Part shown: in pieces, positions 11,203 through 25,245 of the stretch | Layout of the letters: every line of letters starts with the position of its first letter | How positions within the stretch are numbered: position 1 is the first letter of the stretch | Origin: Candidatus Omnitrophota bacterium | GTDB lineage: Bacteria; Hinthialibacterota; Hinthialibacteria; Hinthialibacterales; Hinthialibacteraceae | Reading direction: 5' to 3' | Assembly (NCBI GenBank): GCA_003598175.1 | Contig: QZKN01000180.1 | Coordinates: 108,577 to 172,576 of the forward strand | DNA length: 64,000 bases | Notes under the pieces: model-generated | The model's input: only the letters and a program-made list of their open reading frames with translations | Told to the model about the DNA's origin: nothing | Database searches by the model: none | Translations under genes and position numbers: made by a program

Positions 11203-12375
11203 CTATCCTTTTTGGTGATAATACGAATGGATGGCTTCTTCGTATACGGCGACAAGAGGAATTTTCCGTTCGCAATGAATTCGTTTACAATCTTCATATT
11301 CGGGTGTAAACCGTTTTTCAATCCCCATTCCCCAACAGATTTTCCCTTTTACTGGCCCCCATTGCGTCTGCACTTCACCGGCTTCCCGTTGCAGCGTTCG
11401 TCTTTCGCATTCGTACAGGCGCACACCGATGGATGTGCTTTCTCGCAGGATAATGCGAGAGACTTCTTCTTTTCGCTCGGGTGAAACAATAACCGACAGA
11501 AGCGTCGCCGGGCGGTTTTTTTTCATCATCAGCGGCGACAGCGTCACATCCAGCGCTCCTGCCTCGAATAATTGTTCTATCAGCGGTTCGAAGAATTCCG
11601 GATTCATGTCGTCGATATTTGTTTCGATCACGACGACTCTCTCCTCGCCGCCTTCTGCGGTATGGCCGATAAAGACGCGCAACATATTGGCCAGATCGTC
11701 GGTCTGTCGGGTTCCGGCCCCATATCCAACCGTTTCCAATTGCATTCGCGGAAATGGAGTCGAGCGGCCGGAAAGCACATGGAGCAACGCCGCGCCTGTG
11801 GGCGTCACCATTTCCATCGGGCGGCCGGCCGAGTAGAGTTGGAAGCCTTTCACCAATTCCGCCGTGGCGGGAACCGGCAGCGGGAGTTGGCCATGGCGAG
11901 TATCAACAAATCCTTGCCCGACGTGAAGGGGGGAACATTCGTACTGTTCAATACCCAATATATGCAATGCAAGAATGGTACCGCTGATGTCGATGACGGC
12001 ATCGTAACTTCCCACTTCGTGAAAATGAATATGATCATACGGTTTGTTGTGAATTTTCCCTTCGGCTTTGGCCAATGCGGTAAAAACATCCTCGATTCGT
12101 TCTCTTACACGCCCCGGCCAGGTTACGCGATCCACGATTTCCAACACGTCGGATAAATGGCGATGAACATGATGCTCTTCCTCAACCTCAACATGAACCT
12201 GCGTTCCCGATAACGCTCCCCGCATAACTTTTTCCGCGCGCAAATGGAACGACGGCAGTTTCATTCCTGCCAAAATCGAGTGAATTTCACTAAGCGGACA
12301 ATCCGCGTCGACGAGAGCGCCGAGACACATATCGCCGCTGATACCGGCAAATACGTCAAAATAGATTTTTTTCAT
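11203..12375 (-). CDS. larC: Nickel pincer cofactor biosynthesis protein LarC
   Basis: MKKIYFDVFAGISGDMCLGALVDADCP; ETNIDDMNPEFFEPLIEQLFEAGALDVTLSPLMMKKNRPA. Single uninterrupted frame; ORF track starts upstream at 12396. Confidence 0.92.
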   Translation of the reverse strand: MKKIYFDVFAGISGDMCLGALVDADCPLSEIHSILAGMKLPSFHLRAEKVMRGALSGTQVHVEVEEEHHVHRHLSDVLEIVDRVTWPGRVRERIEDVFTALAKAEGKIHNKPYDHIHFHEVGSYDAVIDISGTILALHILGIEQYECSPLHVGQGFVDTRHGQLPLPVPATAELVKGFQLYSAGRPMEMVTPTGAALLHVLSGRSTPFPRMQLETVGYGAGTRQTDDLANMLRVFIGHTAEGGEERVVVIETNIDDMNPEFFEPLIEQLFEAGALDVTLSPLMMKKNRPATLLSVIVSPERKEEVSRIILRESTSIGVRLYECERRTLQREAGEVQTQWGPVKGKICWGMGIEKRFTPEYEDCKRIHCERKIPLVAVYEEAIHSYYHQKG

Positions 12376-12392
12376 GATGGATCCGTTACGGT

Positions 12393-12409
12393 GCAAGCGA
12401 GACGCTTGC
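12393..12409. repeat. Perfect hairpin GCAAGCG-AGA-CGCTTGC
   Basis: 7-bp perfect arms read directly, in larC leader. Confidence 0.6.
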
Positions 12410-17169: not shown

Positions 17170-17955
17170 TTACTCTTTGATCCTGCCGATGAATCGTAGT
17201 AGTCCATCGAGTATCGTCAATGGATGGGGCGGGCATCCGGGAATGAAGAGGTCGACAGGAACCGTGGAGGCCGCGCCGTTGCAGACATCGGGCAGATCGA
17301 TATAGGGGCCGCCGGATATGGCGCATGCGCCGACGGCAATGACAATTTTCGGCGAAGGAACGGCTTCATAGGTCTTTATAAGCGCCAGTTCCATGTTTTG
17401 TGTAACCGGTCCCGTAATCAGGATCCCATCGGCATGACGCGGGGACGCGACGAATTGAATGCCGAACCGGCCCAGATCCCACACGAGCGTATTCAGAACA
17501 TTCACATCCACTTCGCATCCGTTGCATCCACCGGCGCTGACTTGCCGAAGTTTCAACGAGCGTCCAAAAATCCGTTGTGATTCCTTTTCCAAACGTTTCG
17601 CCAGTTTAAACGCCTGATCATCCACAACTAAATCATCACGCTTGCGAACCGCCAGACGATAATCTTGCGTAAAGCAAATCGCTGTTTGCGGACAGGCTTG
17701 CATACATTCCGGGCAAAAAAGACAGCGTCCTAAATCAATGTTGACCTTTTCATTGTGGAAATGGATGGCATCTGTCGGGCATTGGTCCGCGCATTCCCGG
17801 CATCCCGGCGGACAAAGCGAGGAATCCACGCGGGGAAGACCCCGCAACCGGTCCGGCAGTGCGGGGATTTCATTGGGAAACTTGTTGGTTCGATACCCCT
17901 GTTTGAAACGAGAGAAAAGTACTTTTAACATGTTTTTTACAAATCGTGCCCGCAA
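17170..17955 (-). CDS. Hydrogenase-4/Ehr-like small subunit (NuoB/HyfI-like) fused to N-terminal 2x[4Fe-4S] ferredoxin domain
   Basis: CPPGCRECADQCP and CLFCPECMQACPQ ferredoxin motifs; GGCNGCE, GACAISGG, PGCPPHP N2-cluster ligands. Confidence 0.92.
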   Translation of the reverse strand: MRARFVKNMLKVLFSRFKQGYRTNKFPNEIPALPDRLRGLPRVDSSLCPPGCRECADQCPTDAIHFHNEKVNIDLGRCLFCPECMQACPQTAICFTQDYRLAVRKRDDLVVDDQAFKLAKRLEKESQRIFGRSLKLRQVSAGGCNGCEVDVNVLNTLVWDLGRFGIQFVASPRHADGILITGPVTQNMELALIKTYEAVPSPKIVIAVGACAISGGPYIDLPDVCNGAASTVPVDLFIPGCPPHPLTILDGLLRFIGRIKE

Positions 17956-19463
17956 TAGGATAGATTGAAACTCTTGTTACAGAGAGGGAAATCGGAAATC
18001 TGTTGATTTCGCATCGCCAAGGCCAATCCCATCCAGTTATGGAATGAGGGATCGACAATCTTGTAATGGGCGAACGTTCCGTTTTCATCGGTCATGGCGA
18101 TATGGCAGATTTCTCCCCGCCAGCCTTCGATGAGAGAAACGACTAATGTATTCGGAGAAAAAGTCCGAATGGGAGTCATGATTTCTCCTTTCGGCAAATT
18201 CTCCAATTGATCACGCATGAATTCCGCCGAACGCTGGATTTCCATCCAACGAACATGCGCGCGCGCGAATACGTCGCCGGAATGCCAGGTGGAAACCGGA
18301 ATCTGTGCAAAGCGGTAAATGCCGGTGGGAAATTCAAAACGCACGTCCTGCTCCACTCCGCACGCGCGCGCCGCCACTCCCACAAGTCCCAACTTCCGAC
18401 AATCCTGTTTTGAAACCGTACCCGTTTCTTCGAATCGCGCCATGACGGAGGGAGTATTCCACAGCAACCGAACCGCGTTGCGAAGATCAAGCATGACTTC
18501 ATCCAACCATGATATCAAATGAGTTACGGTGGATGGTTCAAGGTCAAACCACACGCCGCCCGGACGTACCAATCTGCGGCCAAGACGGCTGCCGCAGAGC
18601 ACTGCCGTCATATTAAGGATATCGCCGCGAATCCGTCCGCAATAGGATAAAGTGGGAAGGAATCCGATATCTCCCGCCAATGCGCCCAGATCGCCGACAT
18701 GATTGGCCAGACGTTCCAATTCGAGAGCGATTCCACGCAGACTCTGCGCTCGCGGCGGCGCTGTTAAGGAAGCCAATCCCTCAAAGAGTTGGCAGTAAGC
18801 AAGGGAATGGCCGACCGTGGTGTCGCCGGCCAAGGTTTCCATGAAGGAAAGTGTTTTTTTGTTCGGTCCTCCAATCAGAGCGCGTTCCACTCCGCGATGT
18901 TGATATCCCAGCGATATTTCCAAATGAAACACATTTTCCCCGTGACACTGAAAACGAAAATGGCCCGGTTCGATGATGCCGGCATGGACCGGCCCCACCG
19001 CCACTTCATGCACTTCGTCTCCTTCGACTCTAAAAAAATTCGTAACGCCGGGAAAAATAGAAGGGCTTTCGTTTTGTTGCCATCCATCCGGATGGGAAGG
19101 ATTCTTCCGTTGAAAACGAATGGGTTTCAGCCATGGATGCCCCTGCGGTTTCACCGCGCATTGTTCGGTAATTTCACGCTCGAACCAATGCGCTTGCGGC
19201 GCATTTTGCGTGATCGCCGGATACGATTCATGTACATCCGTACGGGTCAGGGAGATTTCACCATTCAATCCATTCGTGAGTACGGCTAACAGGCGCACCG
19301 TATCGTCGGATCCAGGAATTCCATAAAGAGCGCTCAGGCGTGCGCCATCTTCTAACGATCGAATCACGAATTCCCGAAATTCTTCAACCGGATGGATGGG
19401 AATATGATCCAGCCGGATTGCCTGACTGTTACGAACTCGCGCCGCGTGAGGCAGGCTCATCAT
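17937..19463 (-). CDS. Hydrogenase-4/Ehr-like large subunit (NuoC-NuoD/HyfG-like) lacking [NiFe] CxxC motifs
   Basis: FHLEISLGYQHRGVERAL; L1 region reads ETLAGDTTVGHSLAYCQLFEGL (no CxxC); C-terminus SFNLSYCGHDL. Confidence 0.9.
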   Translation of the reverse strand: MMSLPHAARVRNSQAIRLDHIPIHPVEEFREFVIRSLEDGARLSALYGIPGSDDTVRLLAVLTNGLNGEISLTRTDVHESYPAITQNAPQAHWFEREITEQCAVKPQGHPWLKPIRFQRKNPSHPDGWQQNESPSIFPGVTNFFRVEGDEVHEVAVGPVHAGIIEPGHFRFQCHGENVFHLEISLGYQHRGVERALIGGPNKKTLSFMETLAGDTTVGHSLAYCQLFEGLASLTAPPRAQSLRGIALELERLANHVGDLGALAGDIGFLPTLSYCGRIRGDILNMTAVLCGSRLGRRLVRPGGVWFDLEPSTVTHLISWLDEVMLDLRNAVRLLWNTPSVMARFEETGTVSKQDCRKLGLVGVAARACGVEQDVRFEFPTGIYRFAQIPVSTWHSGDVFARAHVRWMEIQRSAEFMRDQLENLPKGEIMTPIRTFSPNTLVVSLIEGWRGEICHIAMTDENGTFAHYKIVDPSFHNWMGLALAMRNQQISDFPLCNKSFNLSYCGHDL

Positions 19464-20944
19464 ATCCCTCCTAAAATTTGCGCCGCATCATGAAGCAGCC
19501 GACTGAAAGCGGACGGAAGATAAATTCCCAAACAAAGTACGATCACTGCCAGACAGAATGGCGGTACAACCATCAATGCATGTTCTCTGACCGTGTCGTT
19601 ATCGGACTCGATCGATTGCCGTCCAAGAGCGGTGCGAAGAAAAATATCGGCCATACCGATAAAAATCAAAGAAAGCAGCGCCAGATAAACGACGGCAACG
19701 CCGATTTGCTGTTGATCGATTGCCGCTTTCAAAATGGTGAATTCACTCAAAAAGGTCCCGAAAGGAGGAGACCCGACGATAGCAAGAAAACCGGTTATCC
19801 ACAAAATGCCGGATAATGGAAGGATTTTCAGAATGCCGCGGACATCGGATGTCGATTTTGTGTGATACACCGCCAAAATATTTCCCGCTGTGAGAAAGAG
19901 CAATCCTTTCGTAAGGGAATGATTGACGGCATGAAACATCGCGCCGAAAATTCCCTCTCCGCCGAGTCCGATTCCCAACGCCAGAATGCCCATATGCTCG
20001 ATGCTGGAATACGCCAACATGCGTTTGTAATCGCGCTGGCCTAAAATGAAAACAGCGGCGACCGCCATCGAAAACAGGCCGAATCCCAGCAGTAAATCCT
20101 GACTGAAACGTTGAATGCCGGCCGCCACGCACAATTGGTGAGTGCGTAAAATTCCTAAAAATGCGCAGTTCAAAAGTGCGCCGGACAACAGCGCGGATAC
20201 CACCGACGGGGATTCGCTGTGCGCATCCGGCAGCCAGGTATGCATGGGGGCCAATCCCATTTTGGTTCCATACCCGACCAGAATGAAAATAAACGCCGCT
20301 TTTAACCAGATTATCTGAAAACCGTTGTTATGTTGAATTAACTGATCGAGAACCAACGAAACGGATTCTCCCTCAGCCGGAATCGTTGCCGCCACTAAAA
20401 AGAAGTTTCCCAGCAACGCCATGGCAATGCCGACCGAACAAATCATTAGATATTTCCAGGTTGCTTCCAACGAGCGATGGTGGCGGTGAAAATAAATCAA
20501 AGGGGCGCTGGCCAATGTCGTTGCTTCCATTGCCACCCAAAAAAGGCCGAAGTGCCGGCTCAGAATGACAACGGTCATGGTGGACAGAAAAAAAAGCAGG
20601 CAGGCAATAAATCGAGTTTCCGGCGCATTGACAAACAGCGATTGATCCTCGAAATCCGGCCGGCTTCCTTCCGTCTCACGGCGGAGATATCCCACGGCAT
20701 AAAAAGAGGAAATAAGAAACAGCAGACTGGTTATACTCAAAAACAGGAGAGCCACATCATCCAACATCAACCAACCCATTAAAACGCTTGGGGGGGAAAC
20801 AATCCAACACCCCGCGGTGAGCGTCGTGTGGAGCGCCGCAACGATAATCAGCATAAGATGCCTGATTGTGTGGGACCGGATACCAAAAATGGAGATACCG
20901 GTAAATATGGGAACAAGAATCAGTGTAGCGATCATGATAATCAA
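19460..20944 (-). CDS. Hydrogenase-4 component F-like proton-pump subunit (NuoN/MrpD family)
   Basis: GYGTKMGLAPMHTWLPDAHSESPSVVSALLSG; RMLAYSSIEHMGILALGIGLGG. Confidence 0.92.
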   Translation of the reverse strand: MIIMIATLILVPIFTGISIFGIRSHTIRHLMLIIVAALHTTLTAGCWIVSPPSVLMGWLMLDDVALLFLSITSLLFLISSFYAVGYLRRETEGSRPDFEDQSLFVNAPETRFIACLLFFLSTMTVVILSRHFGLFWVAMEATTLASAPLIYFHRHHRSLEATWKYLMICSVGIAMALLGNFFLVAATIPAEGESVSLVLDQLIQHNNGFQIIWLKAAFIFILVGYGTKMGLAPMHTWLPDAHSESPSVVSALLSGALLNCAFLGILRTHQLCVAAGIQRFSQDLLLGFGLFSMAVAAVFILGQRDYKRMLAYSSIEHMGILALGIGLGGEGIFGAMFHAVNHSLTKGLLFLTAGNILAVYHTKSTSDVRGILKILPLSGILWITGFLAIVGSPPFGTFLSEFTILKAAIDQQQIGVAVVYLALLSLIFIGMADIFLRTALGRQSIESDNDTVREHALMVVPPFCLAVIVLCLGIYLPSAFSRLLHDAAQILGGI

Positions 20945-21585
20945 TCTTTCAGTACAGAAAGCCGGTCCGTATCAATGTGATCGAATTCGCGGTTGATATG
21001 AAACATGAGAATACCCATAATGAAAACAGCAACAAAAGCGTCGAGCAACATGCCCATTTCCACTAAAAACGGCGCTTCCGGGGAAATCGCCACGCCGAAT
21101 GCATAAATGCCGTTTTCCATGACGAGATATCCGAGAACCTGCGTCAACGCTTTTTTTCGACTGACAATCAGAAGGAGACCCACCATCATCATAAAAAAGG
21201 AAACAGGGATGACCAACGGCGAAGTAATCATCGAAGGCAGGGGTAAACGAGACCCCAGCCAGAGAGAGAAACCCAACAAACCAATCCCCGCCAGCAGGGA
21301 AATGGAGTATCCGATAAATGGCTCCACCTCGCGTTGCACGTGGGTATCCTGCAAGGTTCGTTCGAGTAAACGCGGAAATACAATCGCTTTCATCACCATT
21401 CCTCCCCCCGCCAATAAAAAGGCGCGGAAGGAGATCAGTTCAATTGTCGTGGTCAGTGGAAGAGTCCCTAACAAGAGTCCCTGCAACGCGCAGATGTGTA
21501 TACATGTCCGGAGACGACTCGTTCCCAACAAAGCGAGGTTGGTCAATATCAAAAGAACCATGATGGCGTCAAAGAAGGATGTCAT
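20941..21585 (-). CDS. Hydrogenase-4 component E-like (HyfE/NuoK-like) membrane subunit
   Basis: Small polytopic ORF; VLGYLVMENGIYAFGVAISPEAPFLVEMGMLLDAFVAVFIMGI. Confidence 0.88.
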   Translation of the reverse strand: MTSFFDAIMVLLILTNLALLGTSRLRTCIHICALQGLLLGTLPLTTTIELISFRAFLLAGGGMVMKAIVFPRLLERTLQDTHVQREVEPFIGYSISLLAGIGLLGFSLWLGSRLPLPSMITSPLVIPVSFFMMMVGLLLIVSRKKALTQVLGYLVMENGIYAFGVAISPEAPFLVEMGMLLDAFVAVFIMGILMFHINREFDHIDTDRLSVLKD

Positions 21586-21589
21586 CGGA

Positions 21590-22498
21590 TTACCTCAAGA
21601 GTAAGAGAAATGCCAGGATTGAGAGTGAACTTGCGGCAACCAACAGTTGAGGAATGCGCAGCAGACGGAGACGGGCCATGCAGGATTCGATCACTCCCAC
21701 ACACACCGCCATGATCACCATTCCCCCATACGCCGCCAGAGCGTCAAGCCAGAGATTCGCGCCATGAATCGGCAGCACAAGCCCCACCAGCAGCGACCCG
21801 AATATCCATAGTTTCAAGGCGGAAGCGTAAAAAATCATGGCCAGGTCAGGGCCGCTGTAATCCAAAACCATGACTTCATGGATCATGGTTAATTCGAGAT
21901 GTGTGTTGGGATCATCCACCGGGATGCGCGCATTCTCGGTTAATAGAACAATCAGGAAAGCAGCGGCGACCAGCAATACAATCGGACCGATACTCATCCA
22001 CGTCTGGAACGATAATGCGCCATACATTTCGGAAAGTGAAAGGCCGCCCGTGGCTCGACTCACTGCTGCCAGACCCACCAGAAAGGCCGGTTCGGTCAAG
22101 GCGGAAAACTGCGCTTCCCGGCTGGCGCCCATTCCTTCGAAACTCGAACCGGCGTCTAACGCGGCGATGATCAAAAAGAAACGAGCCAATCCTAAAACAT
22201 AGGCAAGAATGAAAATATCCCCCTTCGTTGCCAAAACGGCAACGGAGCCGGCGAAAGGAATAAACGCCAGCGCAACCAATACCGCGCTCAGTCCAATAAT
22301 GGGATTCATGCGAAATACCCATGTGGTTGTGCGGCTGTAAACGGCGCCCTTCTTCAGCAGTTTGGCAAGATCATAATACGGCTGCAACAAGGGCGGGCCG
22401 GTTCTCCCCGCGAAAAGGGCTTTGATGCGGTTGATCACGCTCAGCAAGGCCGGCGCGAAAATCAGGGCAACAGGAAGATGAAGATAGGCGGCGTTCAT
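21590..22498 (-). CDS. Hydrogenase-4 component C-like (NuoH/HyfC) membrane subunit
   Basis: LFAGRTGPPLLQPYYDLAKLLKKGAVYS; RIPVDDPNTHLELTMIHEVMVLDYSG; start refined to MNAAYLHLP. Confidence 0.92.
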   Translation of the reverse strand: MNAAYLHLPVALIFAPALLSVINRIKALFAGRTGPPLLQPYYDLAKLLKKGAVYSRTTTWVFRMNPIIGLSAVLVALAFIPFAGSVAVLATKGDIFILAYVLGLARFFLIIAALDAGSSFEGMGASREAQFSALTEPAFLVGLAAVSRATGGLSLSEMYGALSFQTWMSIGPIVLLVAAAFLIVLLTENARIPVDDPNTHLELTMIHEVMVLDYSGPDLAMIFYASALKLWIFGSLLVGLVLPIHGANLWLDALAAYGGMVIMAVCVGVIESCMARLRLLRIPQLLVAASSLSILAFLLLLR

Positions 22499-22500
22499 GA

Positions 22501-24534
22501 TTACCAAAGTTTTAAAATAAGAAGAATGAATAGGATGAGGGCGATATACAAAACATAAAGTTGAATTCGTCCATGCTGCAACCACCGCAGTTTGGAAAGC
22601 CCCCGGTTGATTCCTTCGAACAGGGGACGAAACAGGCCTTCACGAAATCGGTCCGGCGTTTCCGTATGGAACGACGATTTCTGAGGGAACAATCCTTGTG
22701 GAGGAGAATACGTGATTCGAGTTCGTAGGATTAACGCGAAGAGCGACGTGAAGGGTTGTACGAAAGAGGAGGCCGTGTATTGCATGCGGGGCATTGGTTG
22801 CGCATATCCGCAATCCCAGGTGACCGAGGAGCTCACTGTGCGATTGGATAGAATTCTCGACCGGATGAACGCCAGGATTCCGACAATGACGAAAATCGCG
22901 AAACCGGTTACAACCAAGACGTTTAATGTTCCCGAGTAGGCTGCAAAATGCAAGTGAAGTTCCTGTTGCGAAAAACCGGTAATCACACCGATGACCGGGG
23001 AAAGAAATCCCATACCGAAAGGCAACAATAATCCCAATGCCATACAGCTGAATGCCAATACGATCATCGGTATACGCATGGCGATCCCGCATTCGTGCGC
23101 TTCTGCGCCATGTTCACTGCGCGGTTCTCCCAAAAAGATGATCCCGAATGCCTTGCTGAAACATGCGGCGGCCAAACCGCCAATGAGCGCCAGCCCGCAA
23201 ATCCCTCCGAGACAGACAAAGGCAAAATGGGCATGGAGAGAAACGCAGCCCTCTAATGCGCTTACATAAATCAAAAATTCGCTGATAAATCCGTTGAACG
23301 GCGGAATCCCTGAAATGGCAATCGATCCGATTAAAAAGGTCGCCCCGGTCCAAGGCATTCGTTTCATCAGGCCGCCCAATTCATCGATCTGTCCCGTTCC
23401 GGCGGAATGAAGAATCGCTCCGGCGTTCAAAAAGAGCAACCCTTTAAAAATGGCATGGTTCAGGATATGCAGAAGCCCGCCTCCAAATCCCAACACACAC
23501 AATGAAATCGAGTGAATGCTCATCCCCAACATTCCCAAACCCAATCCCAGGCTGATAATTCCTATGTTTTCAATGGTGTGATAGGCCAGCAGCCGTTTTA
23601 AATCATGCTGACTCATTGCGAAAATGACGCCCAGGATTCCTGACGATACGCCGATGACTACCAGAATCACTCCCCACCAGGCCGGCAGCGGTCCCAGGAA
23701 CGTTGCTATCCGGATGATTCCATAAAGACCCGTTTTGACCATGACGCCCGACATCACCGCCGAAACGTGACTGGGCGCGGCGGGATGCGCCTCCGGCAGC
23801 CAAATATGAAAGGGCATAAAACCGGCTTTGGTTCCAAAGCCGATCACTGACATGAGAAACAAGATCCCCGCGATGTGAGAATAATCTTCGCTCGATGCCA
23901 TAAAACGGTCGAATTCCAAACTTCCGGCGTATCGCCCCAAAAGCAGGAACACAACAAAAAGAATTGCGGTTCCCACATGGGTGGCGACGAGATAAGTCCA
24001 ACCCGCTTCGATCACTCCTTCCTTCTCGTCTTCGAATGTGACCAGAAAGAACGACGCCAGAGACATGATTTCCCACACGACGAGAAACAAAACCGCGTTG
24101 CGCGCCGCCACCACCATCACCATGCTGGCAACCAGAAGATTGTAAAAAAACCAAACGCCCCCCAATTTTTTCTTTCTCAAATAAGTTCCGCCGGCATCTT
24201 GTCGGCAAGATACCGGCGTTGCGGCGGCAGCGGATAAATATCCGATGCCATAGAGTGCGGCCAAGGCCGCGAGCAAAAATATCGGGATCAGAAAAAACGC
24301 CGACAGGGCGTCGATTTCCATGGAAAAAGACCCATACGGAACCATCCAGCCGGCGTGAAAACTCGGAAAATCTCCGGTCGCAAGAATCCGAATTACCGTG
24401 ACTAATCCGATCAAACAGGAAACGATACAACCACCGGCGGCAACAAAAGAAGCGGCCTTGGCGGATTTCTGAAGACAAAGCGCCAGGATTCCACTGCCAA
24501 ATAAAAGAAGCAAAAGAAATAATAATGCGTGCAT
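22501..24534 (-). CDS. Hydrogenase-4 component B-like (HyfB/NuoL-like) proton-pump subunit
   Basis: 677 aa; GFGTKAGFMPFHIWLPEAHPAAPSHVSAVMSGVMVKTGLYGIIR; LLAYHTIENIGIISLGLGLGM. Confidence 0.92.
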   Translation of the reverse strand: MHALLFLLLLLFGSGILALCLQKSAKAASFVAAGGCIVSCLIGLVTVIRILATGDFPSFHAGWMVPYGSFSMEIDALSAFFLIPIFLLAALAALYGIGYLSAAAATPVSCRQDAGGTYLRKKKLGGVWFFYNLLVASMVMVVAARNAVLFLVVWEIMSLASFFLVTFEDEKEGVIEAGWTYLVATHVGTAILFVVFLLLGRYAGSLEFDRFMASSEDYSHIAGILFLMSVIGFGTKAGFMPFHIWLPEAHPAAPSHVSAVMSGVMVKTGLYGIIRIATFLGPLPAWWGVILVVIGVSSGILGVIFAMSQHDLKRLLAYHTIENIGIISLGLGLGMLGMSIHSISLCVLGFGGGLLHILNHAIFKGLLFLNAGAILHSAGTGQIDELGGLMKRMPWTGATFLIGSIAISGIPPFNGFISEFLIYVSALEGCVSLHAHFAFVCLGGICGLALIGGLAAACFSKAFGIIFLGEPRSEHGAEAHECGIAMRIPMIVLAFSCMALGLLLPFGMGFLSPVIGVITGFSQQELHLHFAAYSGTLNVLVVTGFAIFVIVGILAFIRSRILSNRTVSSSVTWDCGYAQPMPRMQYTASSFVQPFTSLFALILRTRITYSPPQGLFPQKSSFHTETPDRFREGLFRPLFEGINRGLSKLRWLQHGRIQLYVLYIALILFILLILKLW
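24189..24218. repeat. Near-perfect palindrome inside hyfB-like CDS (CGCCGGCATCTTG-TCGG-CAAGATACCGGCG)
   Basis: 13-bp arms with one mismatch read directly; encodes TPVSCRQDAGGT segment not expected in family. Confidence 0.7.
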
Positions 24535-24537
24535 GAA

Positions 24538-25245
24538 TCAACCAATCTTTTTTCCTGTGGAAGATGCACGGCGGCTTACATCGGAATCCACCTGCCGCGC
24601 CGCTTCGAGAATTTCTTCCGGATGCCCTTCTCGCTTCAGTAAGTATTTGAATTCAGCGTCGCGCAAAGCAAAAGCCAAACGGGATAAAAGTTGCAAGTGG
24701 ATTCTCGTTGTCGGAGTAATCAAGGAAAACAGGATATTAACTGGGATGCCATCCAACGCGCCGAAATCGATCGGATTCTTGAGGAAGAAGAGTGCAATCA
24801 ACGGGCGATTGACATGCAAAACAATCGGACTGCGAACGTGAGGAATCGCCACGCCATCCCCAACAGCGGTCGAAGCCAGCTCCTCGCGAACCAGAATCAT
24901 TTCCAACAAAAAATTCCGGTCGATTTCATCCGGCAGATTCATGTGATGCAACACGGAACGCAAAACCGATTCCTTGTCCGTACCATCCACCTGATAAAAT
25001 ATTCCACCCTGTTCCAATGAATCGGCCAAACCGGCTTCGACGCCGGACTGATTTTCCTGTGCGGGGAACGAATGCGGAGAAACATGAAGACCTTTTTGTA
25101 AGGCCCATTCCATCAATTCGGCCCGATTGAACCGGTATTGCTCGCAAACACGGTGAACCGGGATCTCGCCATTTTGAATCCAACGGTGGATCGTTTTTTC
25201 GGGGAGATTAAAAAGTTTGGTAACATCCTGAATCGAGAGTTGCAC
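24538..25245 (-). CDS. Excisionase/MerR-type HTH fused to PTS EIIA(Ntr) (PtsN-like) domain
   Basis: N-terminal DVTKLFNLPEKTIHRWIQNGEIPVHRVCEQYRFNRAELMEW; EIIA active-site-like GDGVAIPHVRSPIV. Confidence 0.88.
   Translation of the reverse strand: MQLSIQDVTKLFNLPEKTIHRWIQNGEIPVHRVCEQYRFNRAELMEWALQKGLHVSPHSFPAQENQSGVEAGLADSLEQGGIFYQVDGTDKESVLRSVLHHMNLPDEIDRNFLLEMILVREELASTAVGDGVAIPHVRSPIVLHVNRPLIALFFLKNPIDFGALDGIPVNILFSLITPTTRIHLQLLSRLAFALRDAEFKYLLKREGHPEEILEAARQVDSDVSRRASSTGKKIG

Follow-up and report, generated by a model that had tools for sequence, protein, structure and literature searches.

The 64,000-nucleotide stretch analysed here (the window; contig QZKN01000180.1 of the Candidatus Omnitrophota assembly GCA_003598175.1, positions 108,577 to 172,576) carries an operon for a hydrogenase-related (Ehr) membrane complex, in which the large subunit has lost its [NiFe] site. 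Six genes, abutting or overlapping by a few bases, run on the minus strand from 24534 to 17170 in the order of HyfB, C, E, F, G and I equivalents. The first, B (22501-24534), encodes a 677-aa antiporter-like subunit of the HyfB/NuoL type (NCBIfam hydrogenase 4 subunit B, 1.6e-182, 608 bits). It is followed by C (21590-22498), a HyfC/NuoH-type subunit (Pfam NADHdh, 3.8e-33) whose reading frame is open from 22585 and whose true start, by comparison with relatives, is probably the ATG at 22498. Next come the membrane subunit E of the HyfE type (20941-21585; NCBIfam hydrogenase 4 membrane subunit, 1.1e-29; Oxidored_q2) and the HyfF/NuoM,N-type antiporter-like subunit F (19460-20944; NCBIfam hydrogenase 4 subunit F, 7.1e-118). 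The 508-aa large subunit G (EhrL, 17937-19463) joins NuoC and NuoD/HycE-type parts (Pfam Complex1_49kDa, 3.1e-39; Complex1_30kDa, 2.9e-6). The small subunit I (EhrS, 17170-17931) unites a 2[4Fe-4S] ferredoxin domain with a NuoB/HyfI-type domain (Oxidored_q6, 1.5e-27, and Fer4 matches); its frame is open from 17955, and the start at 17931 is probably the true one, again judged from relatives. All six components named in the original prediction are thus found where it had placed them and with the expected domains. Neither the gene list nor the Pfam domains of the operon include a docking subunit of the HyfA/HycB type. Outside the operon, in its vicinity, the region 11203-12396 resembles by eye a LarC nickel-pincer cofactor gene.

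The large subunit had been said to lack RxCGxC at L1 and a paired CxxC at the C-terminus, and alignment with HycE bears this out. L1 reads ETLAGDTTVGHSLAYC and the protein ends in SFNLSYCGHDL; the RxCGxC and DPCxxC motifs of group 4 [NiFe] hydrogenases are both absent from it. All four [NiFe] cysteines of HycE are replaced, namely C241 by A212, C244 by T215, C531 by S502 and C534 by G505. Within the former L1 motif ETLAGDTTVGHSLAY (residues 209-223; 18795-18839, minus strand), A212 and T215 occupy the cysteine positions, D214 is new and invariant, and H219 is kept. The former L2 motif CNKSFNLSYCGHDL (residues 495-508; 17940-17981, minus strand) has S502 and G505 in place of the cysteines and N500 in place of the canopy Asp. 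A search for intact CxxC pairs elsewhere, over all 508 residues of G, found none. The last residues, D507-L508, fall at the position of D536-R537, the end of mature HycE, and NuoD ends there too; since these ends coincide, the large subunit carries no C-terminal extension for a protease to cleave.

Around the lost site, much of the functional inventory persists. In HycE, the residues described as functional are the gate Glu193, the canopy residues R478 and D529, S283 and the proton path H284/E437/R395, and the canopy Asp is conserved in complex I as well (PMC9474812). In G, the gate glutamate is kept as E165 (18969-18971, minus strand; conserved in 83/83 large subunits) and R478 as R449, the Asp common to hydrogenases and complex I has become N500, and S283 corresponds to N254. 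The proton path is kept as H255/E408/R366, with H255 and E408 placed via adjoining aligned positions. The two proton routes of MbhL, Glu21 and His75 (PMC11228991), are likewise both retained, as E165 and H219.

Among proteins in the PDB, G matches HycE from the formate hydrogenlyase of E. coli best (7z0s_E, 1.4e-45), with MbhL and complex I ranking behind, and phmmer gives a weak match to the Mbx/MBS sulfane sulfur reductase (6u8y_L, 1.7e-11). An AlphaFold2 model built from 61 sequences reached a predicted local distance difference test score of 84.7 and a predicted template modelling (TM) score of 0.87, and Foldseek again returned 7z0s_E as the best match of this model (TM 0.85).

A scan of species genomes yielded more than 560 candidate relatives, the best 80 of which show 57-65% identity. 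These 80 come from Planctomycetota, Desulfobacterota, Verrucomicrobiota (Kiritimatiellae, Lentisphaerae), Hydrogenedentes, Omnitrophota, Elusimicrobia, Zixibacteria, Acidobacteria, Binatota, Riflebacteria and others. Across 83 aligned large subunits from about a dozen phyla, E165, G213, D214, S502, Y503, C504 and G505 never vary; H219 is found in 82 and N500 in 81, any of A, S, C and V occurs at position 212, and the C-terminal signature CNKSFNLSYCGxDL together with R449 is nearly invariant. Conservation of at least 98% is reached by 16/20 positions corresponding to the first and second [NiFe] shells, compared with 93/337 in the rest of the D domain (Fisher P 4e-6). Because this pocket is near-invariant in 83 relatives, which also retain the N2 ligands and the residues of the ion pump (see below), the conservation pattern indicates that loss of the Ni ligands is not decay: a rigidly conserved, different pocket, protic in character and adjacent to N2, replaces the [NiFe] site.

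We built maximum likelihood trees of D domains, in which the large subunits without CxxC pairs form three groups, labelled here classes I, II and III (the labels are ours). Together they make up one clade (support 100/100) beside HycE/HyfG (96/93), with NuoD elsewhere in the tree (100/100). Class I is the group of the window and has the SYCG ending. Class II has a GRVSGD motif, an SYSG ending and a small subunit that retains the N2 ligands and has no ferredoxin domain. Class III (L192, L193, L194), on a long branch, has an ERFSGSS motif, an SNAECDR ending and the gene order C-E-F-G-I-B. When class III or NuoD was omitted, the Ehr clade remained intact and outside NuoD, but its exact sister group was no longer resolved. 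Placement inside canonical NuoCD, named beforehand as the outcome that would overturn the assignment, was rejected: Ehr I+II and NuoD are separate (each 100/100), and the window's large subunit falls outside NuoD with full support in every tree. With the full HyfBCEFGI-like operon, the missing Ni ligands and a clade next to group-4 hydrogenases and apart from NuoD, the designation as Ehr-type holds, and the reading as a complex that is not a hydrogenase is supported.

As for the spread of these operons, class I occurs in 4/14 genomes of the host's own small phylum, and class-I proteins of at least 42% identity in around 40/247 genomes of a second phylum, in a census centred on genome G014. A Variovorax plasmid (L199, 8899-27042) has two tandem Ehr-like operons, one with and one without a ferredoxin-fused small subunit, and similar operons, which carry annotations of hydrogenase 4 or NADH-quinone oxidoreductase, are located on plasmids of Rhizobium, Cupriavidus, Rhodococcus and Paraburkholderia. 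In each of two genomes (L181/L182 and L188/L189) a class-I and a class-II operon stand back to back on one contig.

The membrane part of the complex is complete. Subunit B has E155, K236, K267, K364 and E419 conserved in at least 95% of relatives, subunit F retains E140, K228, K307 and H338, and subunit C the acidic residues common to HyfC/HycD; these conserved ion-transfer charges coincide with residues of HyfB, HyfF, HyfC, NuoL and NuoM, which argues for the ion-translocating function previously put forward. In the small subunit, the N2 motifs GGCNGCE, GACAISGG and PGCPPHP read as had been reported, and two complete [4Fe-4S] motifs precede them. The eight cysteines of the latter (C48-C88; 17692-17814, minus strand) are kept in 70-76 of 76 class-I relatives, depending on the position, and each of the N2 ligands C144, C147, C211 and C241 (17233-17526, minus strand) in 74/75, the exception being a planctomycete (L096).

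A seventh gene, which the original prediction did not include, seems to belong to this operon. Designated R (24538-25245, minus strand), it lies 3 nt upstream of the HyfB start and encodes an excisionase-type helix-turn-helix (HTH) domain (Pfam HTH_17, 1.4e-11) fused to a PtsN-like EIIA domain of the phosphotransferase system (PTS) (PTS_EIIA_2, 2.9e-25). In 53 relatives the B gene is complete and sufficient sequence lies ahead of it for the comparison; R is found directly upstream of B in 46 of them and between two B copies in one more. It is also the only recurrent flanking gene, present at 49 loci compared with 4 for the next neighbour cluster. The presumed phospho-histidine H136 (codon 24838-24840), part of the invariant GxGxAxPH motif, is conserved in 62/62 sequences, and the host encodes HPr. 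One Kiritimatiellae genome has no R in its operon but an orthologue (45%) at another site, and no R match was found in G002 and G006, which belong to the host's family and in which a class-I Ehr was not detected. On this basis we infer that R couples the ion pump to PTS phosphorylation. At a Kiritimatiellae locus (L050, 2629-4867), R is absent and small ATP-synthase I-like membrane genes (PF03899, PF09527) stand ahead of the Ehr operon, and in one of the back-to-back pairs mentioned above R is positioned between the two operons. Paralogues of R in the host (L204, 478-2934) and in genome G005 (L205, 4714-7235) lie, as judged by eye, directly upstream of a gene for a ClC-like channel with CBS domains; the G005 paralogue is also beside a gene that reads as rpoN.

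We consider it fairly probable, judging from sequence, that the class-I Ehr complex encoded in the window is an ion pump derived from a group-4 hydrogenase, fed by ferredoxin and terminated by N2, which neither makes nor uses H2, reduces an acceptor other than protons and is under PTS-type control. Electrons from reduced ferredoxin or a ferredoxin-like donor would pass via both [4Fe-4S] clusters to N2 and from there to a small acceptor held by E165, D214, H219, R449, N500, S502, Y503 and C504. The β1-β2 loop would then shift as the product becomes protonated, and this would drive H+ or Na+ through C, E, F and B. The HTH-EIIA protein R, as the product of the operon's first gene, would tune expression or activity to the state of PTS phosphorylation.

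Several observations weigh against this reading. The former metal-site loops (residues 155-168 and 501-508) are of low confidence in the single-chain model, which may be what is expected when the small subunit is left out. Deep class-I members have lost parts of the Fer4 clusters, some relatives lack one of these clusters or both, class II has no ferredoxin domain, and all four N2 cysteines are lost in the class-I planctomycete L096 (11516-12247) and in the plasmid-borne Ehr of Allomeiothermus silvanus (L200, 13281-14153), where the surrounding sequence of the small subunit reads normally. The electron entry drawn above is therefore not universal in Ehr, and ferredoxin-to-N2 flow is likely the rule for the complex of the window and not for every Ehr. 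The earlier description as ferredoxin-linked is, for this operon, made probable by the eight-cysteine domain and the N2 site.

The genome of the host (6.9 Mb, 192 contigs) encodes POR-family ferredoxin oxidoreductases, a haem-copper oxidase and, on another contig, a formate dehydrogenase; the organism seems to be facultative and able to supply reduced ferredoxin. It also has a NuoD locus (contig C13), HypD and three PF00374 loci. Missing hyp genes, which had been suggested as supporting evidence, were rejected and are unusable here, because HypD and the PF00374 loci, which represent true [NiFe] hydrogenases, are present elsewhere in the genome.

A ferredoxin:quinone oxidoreductase, that is, a complex I without the NADH module whose pocket holds menaquinone or ubiquinone, is the alternative that survives best, and we regard it as possible but unlikely. 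It shares the architecture of complex I, and Ehr classes are found in aerobes with quinones, with which the haem-copper oxidase of the host agrees. The quinone-site residues of complex I are His38 and Tyr87 (Thermus numbering). Both are gone in G, being E165 and G213 in all aligned relatives (Tyr87 aligns with Y89 of the host NuoD). The canopy Asp is replaced too (cf. PMC9474812), and the Ehr clade lies outside NuoD. A complex with a soluble formate dehydrogenase docked on the small subunit, formate oxidation powering the pump, was proposed for Margulisbacteria (PMC6349859) and fits the higher abundance of Geobacter Ehr on formate (PMC7894505) and the formate dehydrogenase of the host. Yet no gene for this or another dedicated dehydrogenase recurs beside the operon in around 80 relatives, and the docking subunit is missing, which makes this arrangement improbable for the window. 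The loss of all N2 ligands in L096 and L200, with the rest intact, would suit a non-redox ion antiporter or sensor with relic electron-transfer parts and a pocket that merely gates ion flow; retention of these ligands in nearly all class-I relatives and in class II, and a pocket conserved as strongly as few other parts of the large subunit, leave it little credence. A disabled [NiFe] hydrogenase heading for loss would agree with the descent of Ehr from group-4 hydrogenases seen in the tree, but is extremely improbable given the strict conservation of the new pocket in many phyla and the intact operon and pump residues.

The ferredoxin-fed Ehr pump favoured here belongs to a known kind, since Ehr is an established family of hydrogenase-related complexes with an unresolved reaction (PMC7894505, PMC6349859, PMC10284858, PMC10432482), and the operon, with its group-4-like subunits and a large subunit lacking CxxC pairs, agrees with the published definition (PMC6349859, PMC10284858, PMC7894505). 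We found no earlier description of the regulator R, the residue signature or the N2-less variants, and these appear to be new. Ehr complexes are intermediate between hydrogenases and complex I and occur in many phyla without a known reaction. The signature of the remodelled site can now be mapped residue by residue onto HycE and MbhL, and a deletable conserved regulator, cultured aerobes with related plasmid-borne complexes and natural N2-less variants make Ehr function testable.

Compared with known systems, the operon shares its hydrogenase-4-like organization and the lack of CxxC ligands with the Ehr of Geobacter sulfurreducens (GSU0739-0745; likeness by published description), Margulisbacteria, comammox Nitrospira and ammonia-oxidising archaea; in the searchable papers, neither a constant HTH-EIIA partner gene nor any other link between Ehr and such a regulator was found. 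HycE/HyfG of formate hydrogenlyase and hydrogenase 4 (group 4a [NiFe]) have the same subunits, Glu/His proton routes and pump residues and provide the closest solved structure (7z0s). The complex of the window differs in the absent [NiFe] cysteines and C-terminal extension, the Asn in place of the canopy Asp, the lack of HyfA, HyfD and HyfJ, and the fusion of the ferredoxin domain to the NuoB-type subunit. With respiratory complex I (NuoCD/NuoD) it has in common the fold, module plan, N2 position and protein end point; unlike complex I, it has no His38/Tyr87 and no NuoEFG in the operon, and it forms a separate clade. R, in turn, shares the PTS_EIIA_2 domain and the invariant GxGxAxPH histidine with PtsN (EIIA-Ntr) regulators, but has an excisionase-type HTH in the same chain and is encoded together with an ion pump.

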